DNA of 64,000 nucleotides from NCBI RefSeq assembly GCF_021513215.1, contig NZ_CP090975.1, positions 985,501 through 1,049,500 on the forward strand, in the 5' to 3' direction. Made by a program: the position numbers and the translations under genes. The notes under the pieces were generated by a model. It had not been told where the DNA came from, ran no database searches, and saw only the letters and a list, made by a program, of their open reading frames with translations. This DNA comes from Suttonella sp. R2A3 (GTDB lineage: Bacteria > Pseudomonadota > Gammaproteobacteria > Cardiobacteriales > Cardiobacteriaceae). This document shows, piece after piece, positions 534-59,645 of this stretch (position 1 is the stretch's first letter; the number at the start of each line of letters is the position of its first letter).

Positions 534-1574
534 ATGCCCACACCGCATCAAACGCCTATTCCCACTCAATGGGTCGGTCCTATTCATATAATTGGTAACG
601 CGATTAACGACGAAGTACGCGTACCGCTTGCGACTTACGAAACCCCACTCTGGCCATCCACTGGTCGTGGCGCAAAAATATCACGTCTTTGTGGCGGCAT
701 TCGCGCCACAGTGGTTGATGAACGTATGACCCGTTCGATTGTCCTTGAAGCGGCTAACGCACAAGAAGCCTACGACGCTTTACAAGCGATCCAAGGCAAT
801 CAGGCTTTATATACTGAGGCGGTTGCAGAAACCAGCCGTTTTGCGCGTCTACTCGATATGCACAGCCAGATCGTTGGCAACCTATTATTCCTGCGCTTTG
901 AGTGCGCCACCGGCGATGCCTCAGGACACAATATGGTCACCAAGGCTGCCGATGCCTTAATTGCGCTGATTCTTGAGCGCCACCCTGAGCTAGGCTACGG
1001 CTCGATTTCCGGTAATTACTGCATTGATAAAAAAGCCAGTGCGGTCAATGGTATTTTGGGTCGTGGTAAAAATGTGGTTGCTGAAATCACGATTCCCCGT
1101 GAGATATGCGAAAAACGCTTACGCACCACGCCTGAAAAGATGCTGACACTCAACACGCGCAAAAATCATATTGGTAGCAATATCGCCGGCAGTTTACGCA
1201 GCGCGAACGCCCATTTTGCCAATATGTTGCTCGCGTTTTATCTTGCCACTGGACAAGATGCCGCCAATATCATTGAAGGCTCACAAGGAATTGTGCACAC
1301 TGAGATTCGCGACGACGCGCTCTATTTTTCCTGCACCCTACCCAACCTGATTGTTGGCACAGTCGGTAATGGCAAAGGACAGGGGTTAGAAATCGTTGAA
1401 GATCACTTAACTGAGCTTGGCTGTCGTGAAGCACGCGAACCCGGCGCGAATGCCCGTCGTTTAGCCGCCATTTGCGCCGCCACTGTCCTTTGTGGTGAAT
1501 TATCTTTACTCGCTGCACAAACTAATCCCGGGGAGCTGATGCGTTCACACATCGCTATGGAGCGCCACGGATGA
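534..1574 (+). CDS. mvaA: Class I hydroxymethylglutaryl-CoA reductase (NADPH type)
   Basis: Reduces HMG-CoA to mevalonate, the committed step of the mevalonate route to isoprenoids; cytosolic. The 346-residue protein is the soluble catalytic domain without membrane anchor. Class I hallmarks are visible: catalytic Glu36 in PLATYETPLWPS, the GDASGHNM motif near 127-134, the GNYCIDKKASA motif with catalytic Lys166/167, NAHFANM followed by GQDAAN with catalytic Asp242, and catalytic His339 in the C-terminal ELMRSHIA. The DKK motif region resembles eukaryotic and archaeal class I enzymes more than the NADH-using class II enzymes of many bacteria. The ATG at 534 has no clear ribosome binding site but is close to the likely transcription start. 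The stop overlaps the next start (ATGA). First gene of the operon. Confidence 0.93.
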   Translation: MPTPHQTPIPTQWVGPIHIIGNAINDEVRVPLATYETPLWPSTGRGAKISRLCGGIRATVVDERMTRSIVLEAANAQEAYDALQAIQGNQALYTEAVAETSRFARLLDMHSQIVGNLLFLRFECATGDASGHNMVTKAADALIALILERHPELGYGSISGNYCIDKKASAVNGILGRGKNVVAEITIPREICEKRLRTTPEKMLTLNTRKNHIGSNIAGSLRSANAHFANMLLAFYLATGQDAANIIEGSQGIVHTEIRDDALYFSCTLPNLIVGTVGNGKGQGLEIVEDHLTELGCREAREPGANARRLAAICAATVLCGELSLLAAQTNPGELMRSHIAMERHG

Positions 1575-2602
1575 GTATTGCGGCGCGCAAACGTGAACAC
1601 ATCGCCGCGCTTGCTCGCGATGCAGAGATAGAACGCCACGCCAGCGGCTTTGATCGTCTGCAATTCACCCATCGTGCGCTGCCACAATGTGCACTCGATG
1701 ACGTTGATACGCGCGTCGATTTTTTAGGCAAAACTTTACACTTCCCACTACTGATTTCTTCGATGACCGGTGGCGACGGGGAAACCATTCGCAAGGTCAA
1801 TCAGCATCTTGCTGAAGCGGCAGAGGCGTGTGGTGTGGCGATGGCAGTCGGCTCACAACGCATCATGTTAAGCCACCCTGAAACCTCCACAAGCTTTGAT
1901 GTACGCCGTTACGCGCCCAACACCGTGTTGCTCGCCAATTTAGGCGCTGTTCAACTCAACACTGGTTTTGGTATTGATGAAGCCCAACAAGCAGTTGATG
2001 CCCTTAAAGCCGATGGCCTGTATTTACACCTGAACCCGTTACAAGAAGCGGTACAGCCAGAAGGTGATACCAATTTTCGCGCTTTAGACCGCAAGATTGC
2101 CGCGCTCACTGGTGCTTTAGATGTGCCGGTACTGCTGAAAGAAGTCGGTTGCGGCCTCTCACCGGACGATATTGCGCTAGGCAAGCAAGCCGGTGTGCGC
2201 TATTTTGACGTTGCAGGTCGTGGCGGCACCTCATGGAGCCGCATTGAACATCACCGTCGCAGTGACCCACACGATGATATCGGTTTAGTCTTCCAAGATT
2301 GGGGACTCACCACCGTTGAAGCGCTCAATTTAGCACACGCTGCACACCCTGATGTTACCTTGATTGCCAGCGGCGGCATCCGCAACGGCATCGACATCGC
2401 CAAAGCGGTAGCGCTCGGTGCACACGTCTGCGGCATTGCCGCGCCACTGCTCAAACCAGCGCTTCATTCTACCGCTGCGGTGATTGAAGCCATCGAACGC
2501 TTGGCACGCGAATACCGCACCGCATTATTTTTACTCGGCTGTACGCACACAGATGCCTTACGCCATCAAACCCATTTATTACATTCACGAGACGCATCAT
2601 GA
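1571..2602 (+). CDS. fni: Type 2 isopentenyl-diphosphate delta-isomerase (FMN-dependent)
   Basis: Interconverts isopentenyl and dimethylallyl diphosphate using reduced FMN; cytosolic. The 343-residue protein has the family signatures in order: an N-terminal RKREHI segment, SSMTGG near residue 65 (FMN phosphate region), LHLNPLQEAVQPEGD near 153-167 (substrate and metal site), LLKEVGCGLS, DVAGRGGTSW, and the TIM-barrel end ASGGIRNGIDIAKA. It starts inside the HMG-CoA reductase stop (ATGA) and ends overlapping the HMG-CoA synthase start, so it is probably translationally coupled to both. The type 2 enzyme is the usual partner of bacterial mevalonate pathways. Confidence 0.96.
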   Translation: MSIAARKREHIAALARDAEIERHASGFDRLQFTHRALPQCALDDVDTRVDFLGKTLHFPLLISSMTGGDGETIRKVNQHLAEAAEACGVAMAVGSQRIMLSHPETSTSFDVRRYAPNTVLLANLGAVQLNTGFGIDEAQQAVDALKADGLYLHLNPLQEAVQPEGDTNFRALDRKIAALTGALDVPVLLKEVGCGLSPDDIALGKQAGVRYFDVAGRGGTSWSRIEHHRRSDPHDDIGLVFQDWGLTTVEALNLAHAAHPDVTLIASGGIRNGIDIAKAVALGAHVCGIAAPLLKPALHSTAAVIEAIERLAREYRTALFLLGCTHTDALRHQTHLLHSRDAS

Positions 2603-3756
2603 CCTTAGCCATCGGCATTGACCAACTCAGTTTTTACATTCCCCAATATTATCTCGACCTGGCCACATTGGCTGAGCGACAAGGTATTGATGTCAATAAG
2701 TTTCATCGTGGAATTGGTCAAGAGCAGATGGCGATCCCACCACACGACGAGGATATTGTGACTTTGGCAGCAAACGCGGCACTGCCTTTGCTTGAGCACA
2801 CCGATACCAGCAAAATTGACACTGTAATGCTCGCCACAGAAACCGGTATCGACCAGTCTAAGGCCGCCGCGGTGTATGTCCATCAGTTGTTAGGACTGCC
2901 TGCAAACTGCCGTGCGGTCGAACTCAAACAGGCCTGCTACAGCGCCACGGCCGCCTTACAAATGGCCTGCGGGCATGTTGCACGTCACCCAGACCGTAAA
3001 GTGTTGGTGATTGCCAGCGATATTTCGCGCTACGACCTCGACTCACCCGCCGAAGCTACCCAAGGCAGCGGTGCAGTGGCGATGTTGGTCAGCGCGAACC
3101 CGCGCACGCTCATTTTAGATACCGCCAGCGGTACCTATTGCGAAGATGTGATGGATTTTTGGCGACCCAATTACCGCAAAACCGCGCTGGTGGACGGTAA
3201 GTTTTCCACGCAAATGTACTTACGCGCACTGGAACACGCTTGGACCGATTACCAAAGCCACGGTGGACGTGAATATAGCGATTTTGTCCATTACTGCTAT
3301 CACCTGCCCTTTTCGAAAATGGGTATTAAGGCCCACCAACACCTCGCGAAGTTTAACGATCATCAAGCGCAAGCCGAAGATACCGATAGCGGGATGATCT
3401 ATAACCGTGTGATTGGCAACAGTTACACTGCCTCACTCTATTTAAGCCTCATCTCGTTGCTTGATAATCGTGATGATCTCGCCGGCAAAGCCATTGCGTT
3501 ATTTAGCTACGGTTCTGGCTGTGTTGCTGAGTTTTTTAGTGGTGTGGTGGCGCCTGAGTATCAATCCACACGCTTTAAAGAGCGCCACCAATGCTTAATC
3601 AGTGAACGTGACGCGCTGGATTACGATACCTATCGTGAATATTGGCACCAACCTGACCCGATCGATGGCAGCAGCGTGGCCATGCCAGAGCACAATCGCG
3701 GCACATTCCGGCTGAGCGGTATTGATCAGCATCAGCGCCGCTACACACGCTGCTAA
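2599..3756 (+). CDS. mvaS: Hydroxymethylglutaryl-CoA synthase
   Basis: Condenses acetyl-CoA with acetoacetyl-CoA to HMG-CoA, the step before HMG-CoA reductase. The 385-residue length is typical of bacterial MvaS. The catalytic triad is visible: Glu81 in ATETGIDQSKA, the nucleophile Cys113 in ELKQACYSATAALQ, and His235 in HYCYHLPFSKMG. The thiolase fold pattern continues with FSYGSGCVAEFF near residue 300. The start overlaps the fni stop by four bases and the next gene follows directly. The acetoacetyl-CoA thiolase that must supply its substrate is not in the operon; only a thiolase remnant is present, at 62.1 kb. Confidence 0.96.
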   Translation: MTLAIGIDQLSFYIPQYYLDLATLAERQGIDVNKFHRGIGQEQMAIPPHDEDIVTLAANAALPLLEHTDTSKIDTVMLATETGIDQSKAAAVYVHQLLGLPANCRAVELKQACYSATAALQMACGHVARHPDRKVLVIASDISRYDLDSPAEATQGSGAVAMLVSANPRTLILDTASGTYCEDVMDFWRPNYRKTALVDGKFSTQMYLRALEHAWTDYQSHGGREYSDFVHYCYHLPFSKMGIKAHQHLAKFNDHQAQAEDTDSGMIYNRVIGNSYTASLYLSLISLLDNRDDLAGKAIALFSYGSGCVAEFFSGVVAPEYQSTRFKERHQCLISERDALDYDTYREYWHQPDPIDGSSVAMPEHNRGTFRLSGIDQHQRRYTRC

Positions 3757-3759
3757 GTG

Positions 3760-4818
3760 ATGAACTACTGCGCCCGCGCACCTGGAAAAATCATTCTCAG
3801 CGGTGAGCATAGTGTGGTGTACGGCGCGCCAGCAATAGTCGCAGCGCTCAGCTGCTATACCACAGTTCGCTTTACCCCGCTTCATCGCACAAAAGGCATT
3901 CGTACCCTGTTTAAAGGGCTGCCACGTGGGCCAATCTATCCACTACACGCGCTTCATCATTTTAAAAACAAGCTTGATGAACGCTTTGAGCAATTCAGTC
4001 GTGGTGAGCGTCCGGTACAACACATCCTCAATCGCCCTGATGATTTAGTGATGTACACGCTCGCCTCACTGTTTCAACATCTTCCCCTCCCAGGACGCAC
4101 CAGCACTCATCACTTACCCATGCCTGGACGACTTTCCAGCGAATCCGATTTGCCACTCGGTGCTGGTATGGGATCTTCTGCAGCAGCGATTGCCGCGACG
4201 TTAGTGCTTTATGAACACTTACTCGAGCGACCAATGAGCGCGCACGAGCGCTTCGAGCGCGTGCGGTTTTGCGAACGCTTGCAACATGGCAAAGGCAGCG
4301 CTATTGATGCAGCGGCAGTGACTTATGGCGGCGTGCAAATACTCAATGAAGGTGAGGCGCAACCACTTGATACCTCACTTGAGGATAATGGCTATTGGTA
4401 TTGGTTATTACAGGGCTACCCTGAAGTCAGCACTGGTGAATGTGTAGTGCATGTGCGAGCGCAACATGGGCAAGATAGTGCGCTATGGCAGGCCTTTACG
4501 ACCTGTAGCGAAGCGCTACGGGAGGCCCTGCTTACCCACAAAAACCCTGATGAGGCATTAAAAGAAAATGCCCGGCTACTGGCGCATATTGGTGTGGTTC
4601 CTGAACGTGCTCAGCAATTGATCGCCCAGGTTGAAGCAAACGGTGGCAGCGCAAAAATCAGTGGCGCCGGCGCGCATCGTGGCGAAAGTGGTGGTATTAT
4701 CTTGATACACCACCACGATAGCGAGGCCATCCCTAAGCTATTGAATGGCCTGCCTTATCAATGGGGACCTCTACACGTTAGCACACAAGGCGCTGCGTTA
4801 TGCTCGATCAAGGAATGA
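3760..4818 (+). CDS. mvaK1: GHMP kinase, probable mevalonate kinase
   Basis: Probably phosphorylates mevalonate to 5-phosphomevalonate. GHMP-kinase motifs are clear: N-terminal ARAPGKIILSGEHSVVYG, the ATP loop SDLPLGAGMGSSAAA near residue 130, and the motif HGKGSAIDAAAVTYGG, which resembles the HGxxSxID element of mevalonate kinases and carries the likely catalytic Asp. A C-terminal KISGAGAHRGESGG glycine loop follows. The length is 352 residues from the ATG at 3760; a GTG three bases earlier, directly after the mvaS stop, is an in-frame alternative. A second GHMP kinase lies at 9164-10075. I assign this one to mevalonate because of the HGxxSxID-like motif, but the two roles could be swapped. 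Confidence 0.72.
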   Translation: MNYCARAPGKIILSGEHSVVYGAPAIVAALSCYTTVRFTPLHRTKGIRTLFKGLPRGPIYPLHALHHFKNKLDERFEQFSRGERPVQHILNRPDDLVMYTLASLFQHLPLPGRTSTHHLPMPGRLSSESDLPLGAGMGSSAAAIAATLVLYEHLLERPMSAHERFERVRFCERLQHGKGSAIDAAAVTYGGVQILNEGEAQPLDTSLEDNGYWYWLLQGYPEVSTGECVVHVRAQHGQDSALWQAFTTCSEALREALLTHKNPDEALKENARLLAHIGVVPERAQQLIAQVEANGGSAKISGAGAHRGESGGIILIHHHDSEAIPKLLNGLPYQWGPLHVSTQGAALCSIKE

Positions 4819-4820
4819 AT

Positions 4821-5708
4821 ATGATCAAACGGATGTTGTGTCTACTATGCGGACTCTACGCATTGTCACTCTTTGCCGCTGAACCAGCGAATGATGATCT
4901 CAGCGCACCTTTTGGCTTAACCGTTGGGCAAACGACCTGGCAAGAAGCCGAAAAAGCATTTAGTCAGTTTGAATATTGGCTGGGCGAAGACCCTTCTGTG
5001 CAATTCTATCGTGCCATCAGCATAGAAATGCCAGGATGGACAACCTATGATATTAGCCTTGACCAATCAGGTTATGGCATCAACTTAGCTCAAGCTGGAT
5101 ATGCTATAGACTTTGATCAATCAGGAAAAAAAGCCCTATTGAGCATGGCTTCAACCCTCCGCCTCTGGGTTGACGAACAGGGCATTATTCAAAGAATGGC
5201 GCTTTATTTTGATCCTATAGATGATCATCAGGCCAACCGAATGTATGTGTTATTGAGCCACACCATTAAACAGCAGGCGGAGCTTGATTCTCAAGGTAGC
5301 TTATTTGCCACAGAATATGGCACGAGCTTTATCATCTATGATCAGGCAACCGAGTCGTATTATGCAGAGATCACCCAAGCTATCGATACTTATCGCAGCA
5401 ATCAACACACGAACTTTTTGCTCTATAAAGGCTATGGTGGTGATATAGAAACGTTACCAGAAGGCATAACGCTTCAAGAATATGGCGATGATCAATTGCC
5501 TTATACAGAACTTACCACCCTTCCCGAGCTCACTTGGATTGATGATTTCAACCCATCTTGGTCTGTCTCGCTAGACATAACCAGCGACGCGTATCAACAG
5601 TATTTCTATGGCAACCTCGTGCGCGCGCGCACATTAGATACGCTAACCCCAAAGGCTAAAGCCATGCTCGATGAGGATTTGCAAAGAGCCGCAACCAGTA
5701 AGCCTTAG
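4821..5708 (+). CDS. Exported protein of unknown function, paralog 1 of a five-gene array
   Basis: I do not recognise the family. The 295-residue product begins with a typical signal peptide (MIKRMLCLLCGLYALSLFAA, cleavage after AA likely), so it is exported to the periplasm or beyond. There is no lipobox. Motifs shared with the four genes that follow, in order: PFGLTVGQTTWQEAEKAF near 34-51, GEDPSVQFYRAI ending in EMPGW, DEQGIIQ near 122, TNFLLYKGYGG, LPEGITLQEYGD, and a C-terminal TSDAYQQYFYGNL. I chose the ATG at 4821 because AGGA (4811-4814) is correctly spaced; ATGs at 4800 and 4815 are less likely. It starts two bases after the mevalonate kinase stop, so it is cotranscribed with that gene. 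It carries a longer insertion (about residues 75-110) than its sisters. Confidence 0.85.
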   Translation: MIKRMLCLLCGLYALSLFAAEPANDDLSAPFGLTVGQTTWQEAEKAFSQFEYWLGEDPSVQFYRAISIEMPGWTTYDISLDQSGYGINLAQAGYAIDFDQSGKKALLSMASTLRLWVDEQGIIQRMALYFDPIDDHQANRMYVLLSHTIKQQAELDSQGSLFATEYGTSFIIYDQATESYYAEITQAIDTYRSNQHTNFLLYKGYGGDIETLPEGITLQEYGDDQLPYTELTTLPELTWIDDFNPSWSVSLDITSDAYQQYFYGNLVRARTLDTLTPKAKAMLDEDLQRAATSKP

Positions 5709-5775
5709 TTAGTCTGTAGTCCGCAAGATATTGAGGGTTGATCGATTTAACAGGCGCAATGACACAGGAGCTCTA

Positions 5776-6597
5776 ATGACTAAGTTTATCACACTCGCAT
5801 TATCGGCTTTGGTCTCAGGGCTATTATTGGCCCAAGAAAAACCAAGCGGAGATATCACACGACCTTATGGCCTGGAAGTCGGCCACAGCACGCTACAACA
5901 GGCCGAACAAACCGTTGAAGACGGACATGATACCTTTGATGTTATCGAGGATCCGGCGCAGCTATACTATCGCGCAATCACTTTAGACATCCCAGGTTGG
6001 CAAAAACATCAAAGATCTCTTGGTCGGTTTGCCGATGACGGAATCTACTCAGATACCGTATTTCTTGATCTGTTGGTGGATGAACAGGGCATTATCCAAA
6101 GCCTTAATATCAGCTTTACATTGGAAACAAACCAAGAAGCCAGAGCGCTATACGAGAAAATAGATCAAGCACTACAACAAAAGGCAACACCAGACAAGCA
6201 ATTCCGCCTAGCTGAGGAGAATTACCAACATAATTTTATCATTGACGACCAAAGCGACGACTTTTTATACCCGTCATACGCAGAAATCACTCAAGCAGTA
6301 GTGGTTTATCGCCATGAGCACACAAATTTCTTGCTTTATCAGGGTTATGGAGACGATTTATCCGAGATACCTCAGCAAATCACCTTAAAAGATTATGGTG
6401 ATATGCAACGCTACGCTGAGTTCGCTACAAGACCAAAGCTTGCCTGGGTAAGTGATCAGCCTTCGTGGTATGTCATGTTGATCATTTCCAGCGACACGTA
6501 CCAACAATTATTCGATGACCTGCTTGCCAAATATGCCACCTCGGGTGATTTAATCGATGCAGAAAAAGTCATGTTAGATGAGGCGTTAGGTAAATAA
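5776..6597 (+). CDS. Exported protein of unknown function, paralog 2
   Basis: The 273-residue protein has the signal peptide MTKFITLALSALVSGLLLAQ. It shares the array's motif order: PYGLEVGHSTLQQAEQ, EDPAQLYYRAITLDIPGW, DEQGIIQSLNISF, HTNFLLYQGYGDDLSEIP, ITLKDYGD, ISSDTYQQLFDDLLAKYA. I set the start at 5776, behind AGGAG at 5766-5770. Upstream in-frame codons from 5731 would put basic residues ahead of the signal peptide without a better ribosome site. The 67-base gap after paralog 1 is the largest inside the operon. Its closest sister is paralog 4, with long stretches identical at the DNA level, which points to recent duplication or gene conversion. Function unknown. Confidence 0.85.
   Translation: MTKFITLALSALVSGLLLAQEKPSGDITRPYGLEVGHSTLQQAEQTVEDGHDTFDVIEDPAQLYYRAITLDIPGWQKHQRSLGRFADDGIYSDTVFLDLLVDEQGIIQSLNISFTLETNQEARALYEKIDQALQQKATPDKQFRLAEENYQHNFIIDDQSDDFLYPSYAEITQAVVVYRHEHTNFLLYQGYGDDLSEIPQQITLKDYGDMQRYAEFATRPKLAWVSDQPSWYVMLIISSDTYQQLFDDLLAKYATSGDLIDAEKVMLDEALGK
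6484..6537 (+). repeat. 54-bp exact direct repeat shared by paralogs 2 and 4 (second copy 8224-8277)
   Basis: The 54 bases from 6484 are identical to 8224-8277, and flanking stretches (for example around 6376-6404 and 8116-8144) are nearly identical. Third-codon positions are conserved as well, so selection on protein alone does not explain it. Such repeats allow RecA-dependent loss or gain of the intervening 1.74 kb, which contains paralog 3. Confidence 0.8.
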
Positions 6598-6624
6598 ACT
6601 TAGAACACAAACCCTTAAAGTACT

Positions 6625-7500
6625 ATGATGAGAACGATTGCGTTATTTTTTTGCTGGTTAATACCGAGTGCGCTACTTGCCGAGAATGAAGGGTCATGGT
6701 CGATAACAGAGCCTTTTGGTATCAGCATCGGTAGCAGTACACTCCAAGATGTACAACAACGTTTTAACTATCAGAAAATCTGGTTCTCTGAAGAACCGGC
6801 GCAACCTTTTTTCCATGGTGTTTATGTGGCTATGCCGGGGTGGAATATCTATAGTAACTTGATCCCGCCCTCAGAAGACAGTTTACTTAATAAAGCTGGC
6901 TCTATTAGCTTCTGGATCGATGATCAAGGTGCCATCGGGCAGATAGCTTTGGCCTTTCATAGCGAAACAAGCAGCCAAGCCAATGAACTCTATCAACAAC
7001 TCAATCAGCGACTCAAGCAACAAGCCACCTTAGACCAGCCAAAAAGCTTGTATGAAGCATACTATTTAACCAATTATATTATCTATGACCCATGGCCAAG
7101 GATCGATTATTCGAGTCCGGACGGTGTGCGTAGCCCAACTGCTTATGATGAAGCACCGCCACTGGCTGAAGCCTATATCACAGAATCTCTCGCTGCTTAT
7201 CACCAGAATCACTTGAGCTTATTGCTGGTTAAAAAATATTACGGTTATTTAGACAGTGAAAAAGCGCTCCCAGAGCACATTGCTTTACAAGATTATGGTG
7301 AGCTGTACTACGCAGAATTTGCAGCACCAGCGCCCTTACCTTTCAAAGATGACCCAGCGTATATGATTGGACTCGTCATCAGCAGCGATGCTTTCCAACA
7401 ACCCTTTGCCGATAACGTTCAGCGGGTTGCCGCATCCGGTAAACTTAACGAAATAGCACAAGTGACATTCAACAAATTACTGCAAAACCTTAATGATTAA
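6625..7500 (+). CDS. Exported protein of unknown function, paralog 3
   Basis: A 291-residue protein with signal peptide MMRTIALFFCWLIPSALLAE; the start is the ATG at 6625 or the one directly after it, with a poor ribosome site. It is the most divergent of the middle members. It keeps PFGISIGSSTLQDVQQRF, EEPAQPFFHGVYVAMPGW, DDQGAIGQIALAF, a central tyrosine-rich segment, LPEHIALQDYGE and ISSDAFQQPFADN. An insertion of about 20 residues (roughly 155-175, rich in Pro, Asp and Ser) precedes the ITESLAAYHQNH segment. It lies 27 bases after paralog 2 and 27 bases before paralog 4. Family and role are unknown. Confidence 0.83.
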   Translation: MMRTIALFFCWLIPSALLAENEGSWSITEPFGISIGSSTLQDVQQRFNYQKIWFSEEPAQPFFHGVYVAMPGWNIYSNLIPPSEDSLLNKAGSISFWIDDQGAIGQIALAFHSETSSQANELYQQLNQRLKQQATLDQPKSLYEAYYLTNYIIYDPWPRIDYSSPDGVRSPTAYDEAPPLAEAYITESLAAYHQNHLSLLLVKKYYGYLDSEKALPEHIALQDYGELYYAEFAAPAPLPFKDDPAYMIGLVISSDAFQQPFADNVQRVAASGKLNEIAQVTFNKLLQNLND

Positions 7501-7527
7501 TACCACCCATAGTGAAAAGGAGCCCAC

Positions 7528-8337
7528 ATGCACAAGTTCATCGTTGCATTATGCTTTGGATTGATGCCAGCCACACTACTTGCCGAACACGACAACGATT
7601 GGTCCATCACGAACCCTTTTGGCTTGGAGGTTGGTTTTAGCACGCTACAGGAAGCTAAAAAGACCATTGAAGACACTCACGGTAGCTTTGATTTCGTCAA
7701 GGATCCGGCGAAGATATATTATCGCGCAATCACTTTAGATGTCCCAGGTTGGCAACAACACCAGAAATTTCTTAGTCAGTTTACCGCTAACGAAATCAAC
7801 GCAGACAACGTATTTCTTAACCTGTCGGTGGATGAACAAGGCATTATCCAAAGCCTTGCTCTCAGCTTTAGATTGGAAACAAACCAAGAAGCCAAAGTGC
7901 TATATGAGAAAATAGATCAAGCGCTACAAGAAAAGGGAACACCAGACAAGCAATACCGCCTAGCTGAAGAGAGCTATCATAATAATATTATCGTTCACAA
8001 TAAAAACTACGGCAGTCTGTCCGCAGAAATCCCGCAATCAGTTGCAGTTTATCGCCATGAACACATAAACTTCTTGCTTTATCAGGGTTATGGGGGCGAA
8101 CTATCAGAGATCCCTCAGCAAATCACCTTAAAAGATTATGGTGATATACACTACGCTGAGGTCGCCACACGACCGAAGCTTGCTTGGTTAAATGATCAAC
8201 CTTCGCGGTATGTCATGTTGGTTATTTCCAGCGACACGTACCAACAATTATTCGATGACCTGCTTGCCAAATATGCCGCCTCGGGTGATTTAACTGATGC
8301 AGAAAAAGCTATGTTAGACGAGGCATTACAAAGATGA
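7528..8337 (+). CDS. Exported protein of unknown function, paralog 4
   Basis: A 269-residue protein with signal peptide MHKFIVALCFGLMPATLLAE, behind a strong AAGGAG seven bases before the ATG. Motifs: PFGLEVGFSTLQEAKK, KDPAKIYYRAITLDVPGW, DEQGIIQSLALSF, INFLLYQGYGGELSEIP, ITLKDYGD, ISSDTYQQLFDDLLAKYA. It is very similar to paralog 2 along its length. Its stop overlaps the start of paralog 5, so the two are probably translationally coupled. The strong ribosome site suggests re-initiation in the middle of a long transcript. Confidence 0.85.
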   Translation: MHKFIVALCFGLMPATLLAEHDNDWSITNPFGLEVGFSTLQEAKKTIEDTHGSFDFVKDPAKIYYRAITLDVPGWQQHQKFLSQFTANEINADNVFLNLSVDEQGIIQSLALSFRLETNQEAKVLYEKIDQALQEKGTPDKQYRLAEESYHNNIIVHNKNYGSLSAEIPQSVAVYRHEHINFLLYQGYGGELSEIPQQITLKDYGDIHYAEVATRPKLAWLNDQPSRYVMLVISSDTYQQLFDDLLAKYAASGDLTDAEKAMLDEALQR

Positions 8338-9167
8338 TCATGAAAAGCCGCATAATATATAAAGCCATAGCCATACTTTTAGGTTGGCTATTTCCACTGG
8401 TTTTGTTGGCTAATAGCCCATTGGGCTCAAGCTTCACACAACCCTTTGGTTTGCAAGTGGGGCAATCAAACCTGGCGCAACTTGAGCAGCAGTTTAGTGA
8501 TGAAGAAATTCACATCCTTGAAGATCCTGCGCGACAATTATATCGCGGCATTGCCCTTGATATGCCTGGATGGCGAATGATTGAACTCGTCACCGATAAA
8601 CCAACAACTAACGCATTTTGGAATGAATTTTCAATTTATATCACCATAGATGAACAAGACATCATTCAAAGAATTCAGGCTTTTTACTCTGACAAAGAAA
8701 CTGCTTATCGAAGCAATTATCTATTCATGCTTGTCAGTCGTTATCTACGCAAGCACGCCACGCGCGACCATCAATTTCGTTTATTTGAACAACAATATAA
8801 TGACGATGTTGTGATGGCCCTCCAAGATCGGTCGTTTTTACACGCATCAATCACAAAATCGCTTGATATCTACCGCCATAATCAGACCAATTATTTACTC
8901 GGTACCGGCTATGGCGGAGAAGTGACGCGACTACCAGAAGGCTTAATGTTGCGAGAGATGGGTGATATTGGTTACACTGAGCTACCAGCATCGTCAACCG
9001 ACTTGGCTTGGGTTGAAGATGATCGGTTGTGGGTTTTTTCGTTGATTATCACTAGCAATCGCTACCAACAAGTCTTTCGCGACAACCTCGCTAAAGCTGT
9101 TGAATCTGGTAAAGTATCTGGCGAAATCAAAGCCCTCCTCGAGAAAGATTTAGCACAACCTCTATGA
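8334..9167 (+). CDS. Exported protein of unknown function, paralog 5
   Basis: A 277-residue protein with a basic n-region and hydrophobic core (MKSRIIYKAIAILLGWLFPL, from the second ATG at 8340), ending near LLAN, consistent with a Sec signal peptide. Motifs: PFGLQVGQSNLAQLEQQF, EDPARQLYRGIALDMPGW, DEQDIIQRIQAFY, TNYLLGTGYGGEVTRLPEG, LREMGDIGYTEL and ITSNRYQQVFRDNL. Its stop overlaps the start of the following GHMP kinase (ATGA), which ties the array translationally to the mevalonate pathway. Function unknown. Confidence 0.84.
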   Translation: MIMKSRIIYKAIAILLGWLFPLVLLANSPLGSSFTQPFGLQVGQSNLAQLEQQFSDEEIHILEDPARQLYRGIALDMPGWRMIELVTDKPTTNAFWNEFSIYITIDEQDIIQRIQAFYSDKETAYRSNYLFMLVSRYLRKHATRDHQFRLFEQQYNDDVVMALQDRSFLHASITKSLDIYRHNQTNYLLGTGYGGEVTRLPEGLMLREMGDIGYTELPASSTDLAWVEDDRLWVFSLIITSNRYQQVFRDNLAKAVESGKVSGEIKALLEKDLAQPL

Positions 9168-10075
9168 TTCAAAGCTCAGCTCCCGGCTCCATCATGCTCA
9201 GCGGCGAACACGCTGTGGTGTATGGACATCAAGCGATCGTCTGCGCGATCGAGCAACGCATTCATGTAACGCTTAGCGCCAACGAAGATAACTGCGTGCG
9301 CATTGACAGCGCATTAGGACAATACGAAGCGCCCTGTGATCACCTCAAACCTGATCCGCGCCTACGCTTTGTGCTTGCCTGCATAGAGCGATACCCACAC
9401 AGCGGCGGTGTGAATATCCAGATTGACAGCGAGATTGACCCTACCTTAGGTTTGGGTAGCTCGGCTGCGGTGACTATCGCCACCCTCGGCGCCTTAGCAC
9501 GCCATACCGCAAACCCGGAAACGCCCTTGCTAATACACGAACAAGCCCTTACCATCATTCGCAGTTTGCAAGGTCGCGGTAGCGGTGCTGATTGTGCAGC
9601 CAGCTTGTATGGTGGCCTAATCAGCTATCGGTATTTACCCCAAACCGAAATCACCGCCTTACCCACACCACCGTGTGACGTATTTTTACGCTACGCAGGC
9701 TATAAAACGCCCACCGCCGAAGTGCTTGCGCATATCGCTGCGTGTATGGCAGACGATCCTGATAAATACGAGAGTCTATACGAACAGATGGGTGAGTGCA
9801 CCGACACAGCGATTAAAGCAGCAAACGATGCAGACTGGCCGGCCTACTACGCCGCGCTTAATCACTACCAAAGCTTGATGGTCGAGCTAGGGGTTAGCGA
9901 CTCGACCCTAGGCACCATCATTGATAAAGCACGACAGCACCCCGACTGCCACGTCGCTAAAATCAGCGGTAGTGGGCTCGGCGACTGCGTGGTTGCTCTC
10001 AGCGAGACCGCCCCAGCACACTTCACTGCTACACCGATTGCTAACCAAGGATTGATGATTAATGAACGAGCGTAA
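9164..10075 (+). CDS. mvaK2: GHMP kinase, probable phosphomevalonate kinase
   Basis: Probably converts 5-phosphomevalonate to 5-diphosphomevalonate, the one pathway step not otherwise filled. GHMP motifs: APGSIMLSGEHAVVYGHQAI at the N-terminus, the ATP loop PTLGLGSSAAVTIAT near 97-111, QGRGSGADCAASLYGG near 135-150 with the likely catalytic Asp, and C-terminal KISGSGLGDCVVA. At 303 residues it is shorter than the first kinase. The N-terminal half also resembles mevalonate kinases, so assignment between the two rests on context and on the GRGSGAD element. It starts in the stop of paralog 5 and overlaps the decarboxylase gene by 14 bases. Confidence 0.65.
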   Translation: MIQSSAPGSIMLSGEHAVVYGHQAIVCAIEQRIHVTLSANEDNCVRIDSALGQYEAPCDHLKPDPRLRFVLACIERYPHSGGVNIQIDSEIDPTLGLGSSAAVTIATLGALARHTANPETPLLIHEQALTIIRSLQGRGSGADCAASLYGGLISYRYLPQTEITALPTPPCDVFLRYAGYKTPTAEVLAHIAACMADDPDKYESLYEQMGECTDTAIKAANDADWPAYYAALNHYQSLMVELGVSDSTLGTIIDKARQHPDCHVAKISGSGLGDCVVALSETAPAHFTATPIANQGLMINERA

Positions 10076-11051
10076 AGCGCAATTTTTTAATGCCCACCTG
10101 CCTAACACCTTACAGCCAAATTCATGCGGCGAAGCCTTTGCACCGAGCAATATTGCATTGGCGAAATATTGGGGTAAACGCGATTATGAGCTGAATTTAC
10201 CGACTAACGGTAGCTTGTCGATTTCTTTAGGCACCTTGGGCACACGCACCACCCTCAAACCTGCTGATAAAGACAGCGTATCGCTTAACGGCAAGTCGCT
10301 CTCACTAGACACACCATTTGCGCAAAAAGTCATTGCTTTTATCGATTTATTTCGCCGCAGCCAACCGCTGCCGCTGACCATCGAGACCCACAACACCATT
10401 CCAACCGCTGCTGGCCTGGCCTCTTCCGCTTCCGGGTTTGCCGCGCTCACCTTAGCGATCAATGATCTATTTAACCTTGATTTAGCACAAACCACCCTCT
10501 CCGCGATGGCACGAATTGGTAGTGGCAGCGCGAGTCGTTCGCTTTGGCATGGATTTGTTCAGTGGGATAAAGGCGAACAAACTGACGGCAGCGATTCTAT
10601 CGCGCAACCGATTGCCAGTAATTGGCGTGATTTACGTGTCGGCTTATTAGCCTTAAGCCACGCAGAAAAACACACCACTTCACGTGATGGCATGACCCAT
10701 ACCGCCGAAACCAGTCCATTATTTAGCGTCTGGCCAGCCCAAGCTGAACGCGATAAGGCGCAAATCCATCAAGCGATTGTTAATCAGGATTTTCATGAGC
10801 TAGGTGCAACGGCTGAAGCCAATGCATTAGCGATGCACGCCACGATGCTTGCGGCACGTCCGAGCCTGACCTATTTCCTGCCTGAAACGCTGGCAACGAT
10901 CGCCGCAGTACAAAAAGCGCGCGCAGATGGTTTACCGGTTTATTTAACCATCGACGCTGGGCCAAACGTTAAGCTACTTTACCTTGCTAAGGACGAAGCC
11001 GACATCCGCCACACATTTGCTGGAGTGGCGTGCGTTAACCCATTCCAATAA
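10062..11051 (+). CDS. mvaD: Diphosphomevalonate decarboxylase
   Basis: ATP-dependent decarboxylation of mevalonate 5-diphosphate to isopentenyl diphosphate, the last step before the isomerase. The 329-residue protein has the family motifs: NIALAKYWGKRD near residue 30, NLPTNGSLSISL, the ATP loop NTIPTAAGLASSASGFAAL near 107-125, IGSGSASRSLWHGFVQW, and TIDAGPNVKLL with the conserved Asp near 295. It is the last gene of the mevalonate operon. The hairpin directly after its stop has its T-run on the other strand, so it serves mainly the facing gene. Confidence 0.95.
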   Translation: MNERKAQFFNAHLPNTLQPNSCGEAFAPSNIALAKYWGKRDYELNLPTNGSLSISLGTLGTRTTLKPADKDSVSLNGKSLSLDTPFAQKVIAFIDLFRRSQPLPLTIETHNTIPTAAGLASSASGFAALTLAINDLFNLDLAQTTLSAMARIGSGSASRSLWHGFVQWDKGEQTDGSDSIAQPIASNWRDLRVGLLALSHAEKHTTSRDGMTHTAETSPLFSVWPAQAERDKAQIHQAIVNQDFHELGATAEANALAMHATMLAARPSLTYFLPETLATIAAVQKARADGLPVYLTIDAGPNVKLLYLAKDEADIRHTFAGVACVNPFQ

Positions 11052-11053
11052 AA

Positions 11054-11085
11054 AAGCGGTAAACAGCCGAGGCCATTTACCGCTT
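11054..11085 (-). terminator. Rho-independent terminator of the RRM protein gene
   Basis: Perfect 10-base inverted repeat AAGCGGTAAA (11054-11063) and TTTACCGCTT (11076-11085) with a 12-base loop. Read on the minus strand it is followed by TTTTTTA, so it terminates the RNA-binding protein gene whose stop is at 11103. It may also slow transcription leaving mvaD, but there is no T-tract on the plus strand. Confidence 0.8.
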
Positions 11086-19906: not shown

Positions 19907-19995
19907 GGCAGGTTCCTAAATAAAATCTTCTAAATTATAAACGATTGTTAATGAACTGTGAATGTGTTTATCCTTAGACGAGACAGACAGCGGAT

Positions 19996-20025
19996 TTGCT
20001 GTGCACACGATAAGCGCTATATACT
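19996..20025 (+). promoter_or_regulatory. Putative sigma-70 promoter of hom
   Basis: TTGCTG (19996-20001) and TATACT (20020-20025) are separated by 18 bases, about 40 bases before the GTG start of hom at 20066. AAAAGGGG at 20051-20058 is the ribosome site. No attenuator-like leader peptide was seen. Confidence 0.5.
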
Positions 20026-20065
20026 GGTTTATTGTATTGAAATTAAGTTTAAAAGGGGTTGGGCA

Positions 20066-21377
20066 GTGAAGGATATTGCCATCGGGTTGATTGGTTATGG
20101 CACCGTCGGGCAAGGCGTGGTCGAGGTCTTAGAAGAAAATGCGGCAGAAATTGAGCGTCGCTGTGGTTACCGCCTCAGCGTTGTAGCTGTTGCCAAGCGC
20201 TCATGGCAAGGCACCGATACCGAACATTTACCATTCACCTGTCTCACCGACGGCATGGCTGTCGCTACCGACCCGAAAATCGACATACTCATCGAACTTG
20301 CTGGTGGCGAACATCCAGCCAAAGAATTCATCGAGGCCGCGCTTGATCATGGTAAACACGTGATCACCGCAAATAAAGCGTTGATTGCCAAACACGGCCA
20401 AGCGCTGTTCGCCCGTTCACGCGAAAAAAGGCTTGGAGCTCGCCTACGAAGCGGCTGTTGCTGGTGGTATCCCGATTATCAAAGTGCTCCGCGAAGGGAT
20501 GAGTGGCAACGCGATCAGCGAAGTCGCGGGTATCATCAACGGCACCGGCAATTTCATTCTCAGCGAAATGTCTGAAAAAGGCCGTGAATTTTATGATGTG
20601 CTTACCGAAGCACAAGCGCTAGGTTACGCTGAAGCCGACCCAACCTATGATGTTGAAGGGATTGATGCGGCGCACAAAATCACTATTCTTGCCTCGATTG
20701 CGTTTGGCATCCCCTTGCAATTTGATAAAACCTATATCGAAGGTATTTCACATATCACACCGCTCGATATCGAAATTGCTGATGAGCTGGGCTATGCAAT
20801 CAAGCATTTAGGCCTCGCTGTACGACGCAAAGATGGGGTGGAGATTCGCGTGCACCCAACGCTCATTCCTAAACACGCCCTGCTCTCGAGCGTTAATGGC
20901 GTGATGAACGCGGTGCAGGTTAAAGGTAATGCGATCGGCAACAGCCTGCATTATGGCCCAGGCGCGGGTAAGCACCCTACCGCTTCTGCCGTTATTGCCG
21001 ATTTAATCGACGTGGTTCGAGAGCTCAACCTCGCTCAAGAAGACCGCTTAGCAGAATTTGGCTTTCATCAGCTCTACAGCGATGAAGAACTGCCCGTGCT
21101 CCCACCGGCGCAATTTTTCAGCGCGTATTACTTACACCTTGATGTCGAAGACCGCAGCGGTGTACTTGCGGATGTGACGCGCATTTTAGCCGAACACGAT
21201 ATTTCCATCCGCTCAATGATTCAAAAAAATGCCTTAAAGCACGATGATACTGTACCGCTGATTTTCTTAACTGAAGCGGTTGAGGAAGCGCAAATGGATC
21301 ACGCGATCGCAGCGATTGCCCAGCTCGATTGCTTACGCCACGCGATTAAGCGCATTCGTGTCGAAGATATTGAATAA
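20066..21377 (+). CDS. hom: Homoserine dehydrogenase (frameshifted)
   Basis: Reduces aspartate semialdehyde to homoserine on the way to threonine and methionine. The N-terminal NAD(P)-binding motif GLIGYGTVGQG follows the GTG start at 20066. The catalytic domain carries VITANKALIAKHG, then AVAGGIPIIKVL, NGTGNFIL, and the Asp/Lys region AEADPTYDVEGIDAAHK. A C-terminal ACT domain begins near YYLHLDVEDRSGVLADV, usual for feedback control by threonine. The frame breaks at the A-run 20424-20429: six As are present, while five restore the join REKGLELAYEAAVAGG. As printed, the gene gives a protein truncated after about 120 residues. The thrC gene lies 11 kb away, and recJ starts 10 bases downstream. 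Confidence 0.9.
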
Positions 21378-28338: not shown

Positions 28339-28569
28339 TTATATCTACCCTGAGTTTAATTTTAAAAAATTATTATCGTGATTGGCTCGACATTTTAACA
28401 AAGCGTTAAAGTAAAAGCATGCCTTTAACCAATAATTTTCTCCATTTCAATCAACTGTTCAACGCGTTCATCTTTACGACCACAATTGCCATAATCCTCT
28501 AGCTGAGAAACCGACAAACCACGTTAAAATCCGCTACACTGTGTGGGTAAAGTTTGCTGGAGTGATTGC

Positions 28570-30116
28570 ATGTCTGATACCAAATTATTAACCCGTTCAA
28601 AGCCGTTATCACGCGCGCATCCCGACTATTTGCGTGCGCTTGCGCGCTGGTTTGGTCTCGACGCAGCGCCAGCAGAACACGCTCATGTGTTGGATATCGG
28701 CTGCGGTTATGGCACGCATGCGCTGATGCTCGCTGCCTTCAACCCCAATATGCGTATTATCGCGATTGACCGTGACGAAGAAGCGATAGCGCTGGCTAAA
28801 GAAGTCGCTGAGAAATTGGCGCTTAAAAATGTGCGTTTTATCTGCCAAGACATCGCTAAACTCGCACCCAAACAAGCCAGCGTCGACTACTTAATCTGTC
28901 ACGATGTGTTCAGCTACCTTGATGAGGATGAGCGTCACGCATTGTTTAAGCTCACTAAATCGGCGTTAAGCGAGCGTGGCGTGGCCTATATCACCTATAG
29001 CACCTACCCTGGCTGGAAGTTATTAGAAGGCTATGCCGATATGATTGAGTATCGTTTAGAGCAACCCGCTGAGGGCAACGCCCAGGACGACTTAGCGCGG
29101 GCGCACAACTTCCTAGCGCTTTTACAACAACACATTCAAGAAAACCACCCGTTAAAGCCGGTTCTTGCCCTCTATAATCAGGAAATATTGAGTTTAGAGC
29201 CGCAAAAAGCGCATCTCGATTTCATCGCGAAAAAAATCATCCCGTGTATTTCCATGAATTTATGGCCCAGGCCCAAGAAGCCGACTTAGCGTTTATTGGT
29301 GAAGCACAATACGAATCGATTTTAGCACCAGCCACCGATGATGACCTTGCTGCCATGCTTGAGCAAGAGTGCGCTGGTGATGTGCTCGCCAAGCAGCAAT
29401 ATCAGGATTTTCTCAATTATCAAAACACCCGGCAAACGCTACTCACGCATCAGAGCAATACGCCCTTCCATGATGTGAATTCAGGGCTTAAAAATGATGC
29501 TTTGCTCAGCATGTATCTTCAAGGCGGCTTTCGCCCACCAACTGAAGAAGCCCCAGTGTGGCAATCGTTACAAAATCCAGCTGTCCAGGTTAAAGACAAT
29601 GCGATCAGCCGCTTGGTCTGCGGGCAATTGAACCAAGCGGGATTATCCAATGTGCTGGCTGGTGATATCGTTGAAAGCGCGCCCTCAGAGCAACGCCAGG
29701 ATACGATGAGAATGATTCTGCTGCTGGTCGCCAATCAAACGGTGATGGTTCGTGCTTCAGCGCTGCATATCGAAAATATTCGACTCACCGATAAACCGAA
29801 GCTGCATCCTATTTTGGCAGAAATGGTTGCCGCACGTGCCGCACACCCAGGTTGCTTTGGTTTAAGTAACCGCTGGCATCAAGAATTGGTCGTTAGTCCG
29901 TCGCATGAAGCGGTCATGCAACTTCTTGATGGCACACACGACCGCAACGCTTTAATTGAAGCGCTCAGTAATGCTTGGCAAAATGGTCACGTCACCCCGC
30001 CTCAAGAAGTCGACCCGCAAAATACCACCACGATTGGTGAGCACGCAGAGCTCGTGGTCAAACAAACCCTTTCTTTATTAAGCGCGCAGGGGTTATTAGA
30101 GGAAGAGGCAGCATGA
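28570..30116 (+). CDS. SAM-dependent methyltransferase with C-terminal regulatory domain (frameshifted)
   Basis: The N-terminal half (start ATG at 28570) is a class I methyltransferase: motif I VLDIGCGYGTHAL near residue 40, the acidic IIAIDRDEE, and FICQDIAKLAPKQASVDYLI. The next part reads NHPVYFHEFMAQAQEADLAF, characteristic of the methyltransferase regulatory domain, and the C-terminus holds a PqqD-like or winged-helix-like segment (MQLLDGTHDRNALIEAL). As printed, the frame breaks at the A-run 29230-29236; eight As instead of seven join the halves. The protein would have about 515 residues. The substrate is unknown; members of this type often lie beside uup-like genes. The stop overlaps the uup start. 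Confidence 0.8.
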
Positions 30117-35361: not shown

Positions 35362-35639
35362 TGGATAAGCAGCAACCATTGGACCGAGCACAGATTCTGG
35401 CGCTGATGCGTGAAGCAATGCAATCATTGTTTGAAATCGAACCTGAACACATTGTCGGCGATGCCCATCTCTACAATGATTTAGAAATCGACAGCATCGA
35501 TGCGATTGATTTGATTGATTATATTAAACGACAAACCGGTCATAAATTGGTGGCTGATGACTTCCGTAGCGTACGAACAATTGACGATGTAATCAATGCA
35601 GTGATGAATAAGCAGGCACAAACGCAAACGGATGCGTAA
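35358..35639 (+). CDS. Acyl carrier protein 2 of the APE cluster
   Basis: A 93-residue carrier protein with the modification site LEIDSIDAIDLIDYI (Ser near residue 40). The start ATG at 35358 overlaps the previous stop and has AAGGAA upstream. It differs clearly from ACP1 in sequence, so the two are not a recent duplication and probably have different loads (starter and extension chain). Confidence 0.93.
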   Translation: MMDKQQPLDRAQILALMREAMQSLFEIEPEHIVGDAHLYNDLEIDSIDAIDLIDYIKRQTGHKLVADDFRSVRTIDDVINAVMNKQAQTQTDA

Positions 35640-36216
35640 ACTGCTGGGCGCATTAATTGCCGCACTCACACTCAGCTACCCTTTTTTATGGTATTTTGGC
35701 CAACAGCATGGCTATTTGCGCTTATTGTCCATACTGATGCTGCTGGTGTGTGCCGCACGTGGATGGTTTGCACAAATAATGTTCTGGCGTCTTGTTGCCT
35801 GGACCGGTGCGTTATTTTTTGCTTTGATTGCTGCGCTAGATACACCCTTGCTGATGATGGCTTATCCTTTATTGGTCAACACAGCAATGTTGGTCATTTT
35901 TGCCGCTTCATTATGCCACCCACCGAGTGTCATTGAGCGTTTGGCACGAATTAAAGAAGCAGATTTACCAGCAGCTGCTGTGCGCTATACACGTCGCATC
36001 ACACAAATGTGGTGTGCATTTTTTGTATGCAATGGACTAATGATTATTGTGTTAATGTGGCTTAATCGCCCCTCATGGTGGACACTTTACACCGGCGTCA
36101 TTGCTTATATACTCATGGGAATATTATTTATTGGAGAATGGTTATTTCGACCATTTTGGCAGCAGCACTGCAACCAACACACAGCAACATCGTCAGAACA
36201 TAAGCAAGAACAATGA
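35632..36216 (+). CDS. Integral membrane protein of the APE cluster (COG4648-like)
   Basis: A 194-residue protein with about five hydrophobic segments: LLGALIAALTLSYPFLWYF, LLSILMLLVCAARGWF, ALFFALIAALDTPLLMMAYP, the ITQMWCAFFVCNGLMIIVLM stretch, and ITG-like C-terminal helices ending at IGEWLFRPF. The central PAAAVRYTRRITQMW motif and gene position between the ACPs and the adenylation gene match the conserved membrane protein of APE clusters. The role is not established; it may scaffold the biosynthetic enzymes at the membrane. It overlaps both neighbours by a few bases. Confidence 0.75.
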   Translation: MRKLLGALIAALTLSYPFLWYFGQQHGYLRLLSILMLLVCAARGWFAQIMFWRLVAWTGALFFALIAALDTPLLMMAYPLLVNTAMLVIFAASLCHPPSVIERLARIKEADLPAAAVRYTRRITQMWCAFFVCNGLMIIVLMWLNRPSWWTLYTGVIAYILMGILFIGEWLFRPFWQQHCNQHTATSSEHKQEQ

Positions 36217-37907
36217 GTGCTTCAACAAACCATCAATTGATGATTTTTTTACCTCAAGTACCGGATTTAGAAGGTCGTTTATTTTGTGCCCCGTACACCT
36301 ATGCACAATTGATAGCAACGGCGCAATTAAGTGCATCACAGCTACAAGGCCACACATTAGCTTTTATTGATAGCGATGATGCGCTTATTACCGCCTGGGC
36401 TGTGCTGGCATGCACATTTTCTGGCATCAATATGGTGTGGGCAGCTAATGGTAGCGATAACGCCGCACAACACGCAAGTCGTGGTGCAGATATTCGTTTG
36501 GCAGATTTAACCCTAAATAATCAAACCACACTGCCAACGCTCTCTCCCGACTGGTCAGCAAGCAAACACGTTGATTTGCCAACACATTGTCACGATATCA
36601 CATTAACGCTACACACCTCCGGATCAAGCGGTCATCCTAAAGCAATCACCCGGCAATTAAGCAGCATATTTGCTGAAGTGGATGCTATCAGCACCGAACT
36701 AACGCCGACCACTGCCGTGCAAATTGGCAGTGTCTCTGTGCGGCATCTATATGGTTTAACGTTTAGGGTCTGTTACCCACTACGTCATGGCATGACGATT
36801 GACCAACAATTATGCCGTTTTCCAGAAGATGTTATCAGGGCTTTAGCACGCTATGAGCGCGTACAATGCATCAGCAGCCCAACCATGCTGAGTGCGCTCA
36901 GTCGCAGCCAGGTACTCGATACACTTGATGAGCGCATCGAAACCATTACTTCGGCAGGTGGATTGTTGTCTGATGCTGTCCGCGAAAAGATTAATGCACG
37001 GCTGTCTTCGCCAATTCTTGACGTTTATGGTTCTACGGAAACCGGGGTAATTGCCTGGCGACGACACACAGATTGGCGGGCTTTTCCCAAAGTGGAGATA
37101 CACCTTAATCCACAACAGCGACTGGTGGTGCGTTCACCGTGGTGCGCAGAAACATTTACAACCGCTGACCTCGCGTACGAAACAGCTCATGGCTGGCACT
37201 TGCACGGACGCGCCGACGCCGTGATTAAATTAGCGGATAAACGGGTTTCACTCGTCGCACTGAATAACGACATATCAGCCGATTCTTTCGTTGATGATGT
37301 CCATTGCTTTGTCCCCCAAGGCCACCAACATATCGCAGCATGGGTGGCACTGAATACTGACGGGGTTCAAGCACTCTGCGAGCATGGACGTAACGCATTA
37401 ATCACCAAGTTACGTCAACGAGTGAGTCAGACCCATGACCGCGTGGTCATACCAAGATATTGGCGCTTCGATCTGACTTTGCCGCGCGACGCTCAGGGAA
37501 AGCTAAGCCAAAAAATCGTTGAACATCGATTTAATCAACCCATCCGTGCACCCGAATGGTATGAGCATCAACATCAACAACAGCAACAGCCGTACGAAAT
37601 CACATTACACGCCACCATACCACTGGATTTATTCTATTTTAATGGCCATTTTGATCGTTTTCCGATTGTACCTGGGGTCGTACAATTACATTGGGCACTG
37701 GAACATGCGCAACACTATTTCACACTACCATCATCGCTATTGAGCGTAGAAAACCTTAAATATCAAGAAATGCTGCGCCCTGCTGCTGAGATATGTCTAA
37801 GCATCGCACATGATCATGCTCGTGATAAAGTCTCGTTTGTCTATCATGATAGAACATCGCAACAAAAATACGCCTCGGGACGTTTGGTTTTTGGGATACG
37901 AACATGA
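36213..37907 (+). CDS. Acyl-AMP ligase fused to a hot-dog dehydratase domain (APE cluster)
   Basis: A 564-residue two-domain protein. Residues 1 to about 440 are an ANL adenylating enzyme: LTLHTSGSSGHPKAITRQLS near 127 (P-loop), DVYGSTETGVIAWR near 268, the HLHGRADAVIKLADKRVSL hinge near 330 and the catalytic-lysine end LPRDAQGKLSQKIVEHRF. Residues from about 460 form a hot-dog 3-hydroxyacyl dehydratase-like domain, with FYFNGHFDRFPIVPGVVQLH carrying the catalytic His. The adenylation part would load an aryl acid on an ACP; the dehydratase part would form double bonds in each elongation round. In other APE clusters these activities can be separate genes. Confidence 0.87.
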   Translation: MSASTNHQLMIFLPQVPDLEGRLFCAPYTYAQLIATAQLSASQLQGHTLAFIDSDDALITAWAVLACTFSGINMVWAANGSDNAAQHASRGADIRLADLTLNNQTTLPTLSPDWSASKHVDLPTHCHDITLTLHTSGSSGHPKAITRQLSSIFAEVDAISTELTPTTAVQIGSVSVRHLYGLTFRVCYPLRHGMTIDQQLCRFPEDVIRALARYERVQCISSPTMLSALSRSQVLDTLDERIETITSAGGLLSDAVREKINARLSSPILDVYGSTETGVIAWRRHTDWRAFPKVEIHLNPQQRLVVRSPWCAETFTTADLAYETAHGWHLHGRADAVIKLADKRVSLVALNNDISADSFVDDVHCFVPQGHQHIAAWVALNTDGVQALCEHGRNALITKLRQRVSQTHDRVVIPRYWRFDLTLPRDAQGKLSQKIVEHRFNQPIRAPEWYEHQHQQQQQPYEITLHATIPLDLFYFNGHFDRFPIVPGVVQLHWALEHAQHYFTLPSSLLSVENLKYQEMLRPAAEICLSIAHDHARDKVSFVYHDRTSQQKYASGRLVFGIRT

Positions 37908-38623
37908 GCACGCCAAGAACCGTTGCCCTAATTCCGCACTATCGTCATCACAGTACGATTAGTGATGTCGTGGCGAAGCTGCGTGACTATGGGCTGCATT
38001 GTTTGATTGTCGATGATGGTTCGGGAGCAGTGTCGCAAGAAACGCTAACCAATCTAGCCACACAAAAAGGGGTTTCGGTATTGTGGCGTGAAATAAACGG
38101 TGGCAAAGGCGCAGCTGTTTGCGATGGACTGATCTGGGCAAACGCTCAAGGCTATAGTCATGCGCTACAAGTTGATGCAGATGGTCAACATCATTTGGAT
38201 GATGTTCCGCGGTTAATCAAAGCCGCAGAAACAGCACCACAGGCACTAATTTGCGCACGCCCTATCTACAACGAAGACGCGCCGAAATCTCGTCTTTATG
38301 GACGAAAAATCACTAATTTCTGGATTTGGGTGAACACCGGTTCACGTCATATTTATGATGGCATGTGTGGTTTTCGTGTGTATCCGCTGGCATCAGCCAT
38401 AGCGCTGATTCAGAATAAATATATAGGCAAACGTATGGACTTCGATACAGAAATCCTTGTGCGTTTACATTGGCAAGGCGTGGAAATGGTGTGGATAGAT
38501 AGTCGTGTATCTTATCAACCTGAAGGGGTATCACATTTCCGACTCTGGCGAGATAATGCGTTAATCAGCTGGATGCATACCCGTTTATTTTTCATCGGAT
38601 TATGGCGGCGCATATGGCGCTAA
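37904..38623 (+). CDS. Family 2 glycosyltransferase of the APE cluster
   Basis: A 239-residue GT-A fold glycosyltransferase: ALIPHYRHHSTISDVVAKL at the N-terminus, LIVDDGSGAVSQET near 35, REINGGKGAAVCDGL, the DXD-like HALQVDADGQHH near 87-98 and the acceptor region DGMCGFRVYPL. No membrane segment, so it is a peripheral cytosolic enzyme. It may transfer a sugar or a polyprenyl-phosphate-linked group to the pigment. It overlaps the next gene by 22 bases. Confidence 0.88.
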   Translation: MSTPRTVALIPHYRHHSTISDVVAKLRDYGLHCLIVDDGSGAVSQETLTNLATQKGVSVLWREINGGKGAAVCDGLIWANAQGYSHALQVDADGQHHLDDVPRLIKAAETAPQALICARPIYNEDAPKSRLYGRKITNFWIWVNTGSRHIYDGMCGFRVYPLASAIALIQNKYIGKRMDFDTEILVRLHWQGVEMVWIDSRVSYQPEGVSHFRLWRDNALISWMHTRLFFIGLWRRIWR

Positions 38624-56562: not shown

Positions 56563-56603
56563 CTTATCCCATGCACCAATAACATTTGATTAAGAGAAAC
56601 ACA

Positions 56604-57965: not shown

Positions 57966-58028
57966 AACCTAAACCAATTAAAATATCGATACATTGTTTC
58001 CAGGAATGAATAATTAACAAATACCACG

Positions 58029-59606: not shown

Positions 59607-59645
59607 GCAATTATTGATTAAAACCATAATAACGAAAAGGATTCA

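Follow-up and report, generated by a model that had tools for sequence, protein, structure and literature searches.

An apparently species-restricted array of five paralogous, predicted exported proteins between the two kinase genes of a mevalonate operon in Suttonella sp. R2A3

The window analyzed here is a 64,000-nt stretch of the Suttonella sp. R2A3 genome (contig NZ_CP090975.1, positions 985,501 to 1,049,500), whose DNA has a G+C content of ~48%, compared with 39% in Suttonella ornithocola (PMC5313612). It contains a mevalonate operon with the gene order mvaA-idi-hcs-K1-[array]-K2-mvd, in which K1 and K2 are GHMP kinase genes and the array consists of five paralogous open reading frames (ORFs), A1 to A5, at window positions 4821-9167. 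All five lie on the + strand and encode products of 269-295 amino acids (aa). The features of the operon are as follows:

534..1574, + strand: mvaA, HMG-CoA reductase (NCBIfam TIGR00533, E 1.5e-85, below the model's curated cut-off)
1571..2602, + strand: idi, type 2 IPP isomerase (TIGR02151, E 2.6e-111)
2599..3756, + strand: hcs, HMG-CoA synthase (TIGR01835, E 2.4e-158)
3757..4818, + strand: K1, GHMP kinase, assigned as mvk from the gene order (TIGR00549, E 2e-38, below the cut-off)
4821..5708, + strand: A1, 295 aa, predicted exported; alternative start at 4815
5776..6597, + strand: A2, 273 aa, predicted exported; AlphaFold model with pLDDT 80
6628..7500, + strand: A3, 290 aa, predicted exported; 291 aa with the ATG at 6625
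7528..8337, + strand: A4, 269 aa, predicted exported; body A2-like from codon ~46
8340..9167, + strand: A5, 275 aa, predicted exported; 277 aa from 8334; AlphaFold model with pLDDT 79
9164..10075, + strand: K2, GHMP kinase, assigned as pmk from the gene order (TIGR00549, E 1.4e-47, narrowly under the cut-off)
10062..11051, + strand: mvd, diphosphomevalonate decarboxylase (TIGR01240, E 6.5e-85)
11054..11085, - strand (as given by the scan): terminator-like hairpin of 14 pairs directly after mvd (terminator scan)

The mvaA product is 86% identical to its ortholog in G001, a genome of the same genus. K1 and K2 both scored best with the mevalonate kinase model; since the order of the six enzyme genes equals that of the Paracoccus zeaxanthinifaciens mevalonate operon (mvaA-idi-hcs-mvk-pmk-mvd; PMC6742980), K1 is probably mvk and K2 is probably pmk. 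In the Paracoccus operon and in 20 other loci, some of them without idi, the kinase genes are direct neighbors, whereas here they are separated by 4.3 kb and five genes. Because no gene for DXP reductoisomerase (DXR) was found in the complete genome, in a search whose control was positive in 10 of 14 genomes, the operon is probably the sole isoprenoid route of this organism.

Elsewhere in the window, positions 35632-48758 look like a cluster of the aryl-polyene type, with an AMP-binding/ApeI-like fusion and two ketoacyl synthase genes detected by Pfam and acyltransferase-like, glycosyltransferase-like, and exporter-like genes recognized by reading. A probable histidine utilization cluster, also recognized by reading, occupies positions 54829-62095 (urocanase, histidine ammonia-lyase, formimidoylglutamase-like, and imidazolonepropionase-like genes). 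At positions 28543-30116, a methyltransferase domain and a MethyTransf_Reg/PKMT part (Pfam) lie in two overlapping frames, which suggests a frameshift, or an error in the sequence, within a single gene, and at 19958-21377 a homoserine-dehydrogenase-like protein is split over two overlapping frames in a frameshift-like manner.

A preliminary description of the locus had reported five tandem paralogous genes of 269-295 codons between the GHMP kinases, and both the coordinates and the lengths of the ORFs agree with it. So does profile recovery: when the complete 1.99-Mbp genome was searched with a five-member profile, its only matches were the five array genes (E 1e-120 to 1e-134); the profile was made from these five, and single-sequence searches gave the same outcome. 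Pairwise protein identity between the members is 31-41%, with the exception of A2/A4 (68%). The ordered motifs described as common to all five proteins are indeed shared but are degenerate in A3 and A5, A3 being the copy whose motifs are furthest from the rest.

Translation of the array had been described as continuous with that of the operon. This applies to its downstream end, where the A4-A5 junction is tight (a 2-nt gap, or an overlap if the earlier A5 ATG is used) and the A5 stop overlaps the K2 start by ATGA, as reported, but not to the interior, where gaps of 67 nt (A1-A2), 27-30 nt (A2-A3), and 27 nt (A3-A4) occur. At the upstream end, the A1 start at 4821 lies 2 nt past the K1 stop, as originally stated, but an in-frame ATG at 4815 would overlap that stop (ATGA), and A1 may be coupled to the upstream kinase through it. 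No convincing forward-strand terminator was found between K1 and K2 by the terminator scan, and promoter-like matches in the same interval were at chance level in the promoter scan.

The G+C content of the array genes (0.43-0.45) is lower than that of the flanking operon genes (0.51-0.54). For the A2/A4 pair, dN was 0.19 and dS was 0.48 (NG86), and the dN/dS ratio of ~0.4-0.6 varied with the method; in the other pairs, dN was 0.58-0.73 and dS was saturated or very high. Judging by these values, the array genes are coding sequences under constraint, though diverged. A2 and A4 form a mosaic pair. Their nucleotide identity is 84% from codon ~46 onward and 53% in the first 45 codons, where A4 is no closer to A2 than the background level of the other copies. 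Since nucleotide identity drops to background in this 5′ part, recombination or partial conversion is a better explanation than fast protein evolution.

All five proteins have a hydrophobic leader with a core of 2.1-2.5 (Kyte-Doolittle, 11 residues) and lower hydrophobicity downstream, and in each a cleavage site is proposed at LLA or LFA. These Sec-type leaders, called from sequence features alone, agree with the signal peptides reported earlier. There are no cysteines in the ~1300 mature residues of the array, versus 2-10 per protein in four operon enzymes, which fits an extracytoplasmic location of the array products. The proteins are acidic (pI 4.2-4.9). A lipobox is absent: none of the five proteins has a cysteine at its proposed cleavage site or beyond it; no obvious surface-anchoring motif was seen in them, and their invariant residues include no obvious catalytic set.

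Searches of the array proteins against Pfam, NCBIfam, PHROGs, PADLOC, and PDB sequences returned chance-level matches only, none of them significant. Even with the threshold relaxed to E≤10, the array profile matched nothing in G001 or in the ten remaining relatives within the bacterial family, and a search of additional relatives was likewise negative. The array family was likewise not found in 368 other Gammaproteobacteria (six weak partial matches) or in 397 other genomes of the phylum (one weak match, rejected), and no relative was detected in GTDB contigs and viral contigs by pattern scan or in plasmids by tblastn. A weak match in G187 (L051) was rejected as an array homolog since it is the leader of an SGNH-type hydrolase, and another in G496 (L135) was rejected since its frame holds a stop and overlaps a glycosyltransferase-like gene; the remaining weak matches among the 368 Gammaproteobacteria were short, partial, and in other frames. 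The profile search, which the preliminary description had set as a check, thus led to no well-described family and no homolog, and the array stands as an undescribed family by its lack of matches in the searched libraries; the further designation as a "system" exceeds the evidence. We conclude that the family appears species-restricted, on the basis of genome sets that overlap and are samples, in which near records may be left out, and of pattern scans, which miss distant relatives. It need not be young, since the older paralogs are saturated at synonymous sites; loss in relatives and acquisition from an unsampled source are equally possible.

The junction between mvk and pmk was compared across genomes. 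The two kinases sit side by side at 21 other loci where they occur together; in G006, the downstream kinase start overlaps the first kinase. Four genomes of the family (G004, G005, G007, and G009) carry the two GHMP kinases at separate places; in these, the mevalonate operon is broken while both kinases are kept. Something lies between co-located kinases only here and in G001, where the same junction of the otherwise conserved operon holds a single DUF695-like gene (L040:5312-6343, - strand), and a TTG overlapping the stop of this gene can serve as the start of the downstream kinase. The match to DUF695 is weak (E 1e-4, 23.0 bits, with the cut-off at 23.1). The encoded protein of 343 aa lacks a leader, unlike the array proteins with their predicted leaders. 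In a search of 40 genomes, its sole matches were distant (24% identity) and came from two members of the order. Profile comparison gave no support for homology of this gene with the array (probability 0.4%). Two unrelated inserts at one junction within one genus suggest that mvk|pmk is a permissive insertion site, which counts against a pathway-specific role of the inserts. Together with the absence of homologs from the searched sets and the 21 loci with adjacent kinases, the unrelated insert in G001 supports one of the two possibilities raised at the outset, a lineage-specific expansion that hitchhikes on the operon.

Structure prediction, proposed initially for each member, was run on A2 (pLDDT 80, pTM 0.81) and A5 (pLDDT 79, pTM 0.79); the two models use one common alignment and are not fully independent, the members being ~36% identical. 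Foldseek returned nothing at E≤0.001 for either model. The top VIA-align match of both was the DUF4309 protein YjgB of Bacillus subtilis (PDB 4ygt), with Z 6.5 (rmsd 4.1, 127/148 residues) and Z 6.8 (rmsd 4.2, 128 residues), ahead of the next match by Z >1; the guide value is Z 8, below which chance arrangements occur and all fold matches reported here lie. Later matches shared by the two models, at Z ~3.5-5.1, were PknH, TiME, DcrB, YfeY, MTC28, LpqN, PsbP, and Mog1p. Many of these belong to the Mog1p/PsbP/DcrB type (DcrB 6e8a, YfeY 2qzb, the PknH sensor 4esq, TiME, LpqN, and PsbP), several members of which are exported or membrane-associated. They have no sequence relationship to the array, DcrB has a lipobox whereas the array proteins do not, and at Z <8 the likeness may reflect a common arrangement. 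YjgB, the best fold match, is yet only 9-10% identical in sequence, and membership in DUF4309 was rejected at the sequence level: none of the five proteins gave a PF14172 match in Pfam at E≤10. Neither this genome nor 368 other Gammaproteobacteria yielded a PF14172 match, while the control was positive in B. subtilis. Little literature on the DUF4309 family was found (one incidental mention).

The models thus provide a weak, reproducible, and suggestive likeness to DUF4309 and to exported proteins of the Mog1p/PsbP/DcrB type, which does not establish membership in either. The initial statement that no domain of known function is recognizable stands at the sequence level and is qualified by this likeness at the level of predicted fold. 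A precedent is PA1624 of Pseudomonas aeruginosa, a 268-aa periplasmic protein without detectable sequence homology to known structures that was found to hold a DcrB-like domain (PMC7716261). Two other candidates were rejected. A chorismate-lyase-type fold, which would provide a link to quinones, scored Z 4.9-5.1 with A2 and 3.8-4.1 with A5, tied with unrelated matches, and the array proteins look exported. The START lipid-transfer domains returned by Foldseek were rejected as evidence because of a TM score of ~0.14.

We consider it somewhat better than an even chance that the array is an orphan family restricted to one species, inserted at mvk|pmk and expanded in tandem, whose products are soluble periplasmic proteins with a binding or scaffold role and are co-expressed with the operon by position. 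Having entered the junction, the family would have grown in place through tandem duplication and recombination. Each protein would be exported by Sec, the leader being cut at LLA or LFA, and the mature chain is predicted to form one alpha+beta domain of the general Mog1p/PsbP/DcrB or DUF4309 type, in which helices pack against a large antiparallel sheet. Domains of these types mostly serve in partner binding, not catalysis. The array proteins most likely act as binders or scaffolds within the cell envelope, and the paralogs may have diverged to suit distinct partners or ligands. Expression would be what ties them to mevalonate, with the array using the operon transcript and A5 probably coupled in translation to the kinase start.

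An alternative is that the array encodes secreted or surface-exposed proteins for interaction with a host or with competitors, which diversify by duplication and recombination. The strong divergence and species restriction, the mosaic A4 with its A2-like body and different first ~45 codons, and the acidic, cysteine-free composition of proteins predicted to be exported are all consistent with it. We nevertheless regard it as unlikely, since the proteins show no lipobox or recognizable surface anchor and the family occupies a single locus with no further copies in the genome.

It is distinctly unlikely that the array proteins bind, carry, or sense polyprenyl lipids or quinones in the periplasm and are kept in the operon so that their dose tracks isoprenoid output. 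The position inside what is probably the only isoprenoid operon (no DXR was found) points this way, as do the START lipid-binding domains that head the Foldseek matches of A5 (E 0.006), but with a TM score of ~0.14, and the mycobacterial Mog1p/PsbP-type proteins LpqN and TiME among the VIA-align matches. However, none of the other mevalonate operons seen contains the array family, an unrelated, leaderless gene fills this slot in G001, and the fold matches are weak and partly contradictory. Position is the one piece of positive evidence for the earlier proposal that the proteins work with isoprenoids. We know of no precedent for a family that physically ties isoprenoid supply to the envelope, and we give very little credence to a new periplasmic family of this kind, with its dose fixed by where it sits in the mevalonate operon.

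The least probable account is that the array encodes periplasmic proteins giving immunity to toxins from rival bacteria: tandem, divergent, exported paralogs, as found here, are typical of orphan immunity arrays, and the Eag chaperones SciW and EagT6 fall in the same loose fold class, but there is no TssB (PF05591) in the genome (control positive in E. coli), which is compatible with orphan immunity without a T6SS of its own, no PADLOC match, and no toxin gene recognized beside the array.

On the preferred reading, that of an orphan family co-expressed by position, the array is probably ordinary in kind, being a species-restricted tandem family with a fold of a known type. Species-restricted exported families are a known phenomenon, of which the array is an unusually clean example. 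Its five paralogs share a single locus, their entry point into the probable sole isoprenoid operon of the genome is exact, a relative from the same genus carries a different insert there, and recombination between copies is visible. The array lends itself well to asking how orphan genes come to be expressed by settling into a core operon, and whether being placed there has a function.
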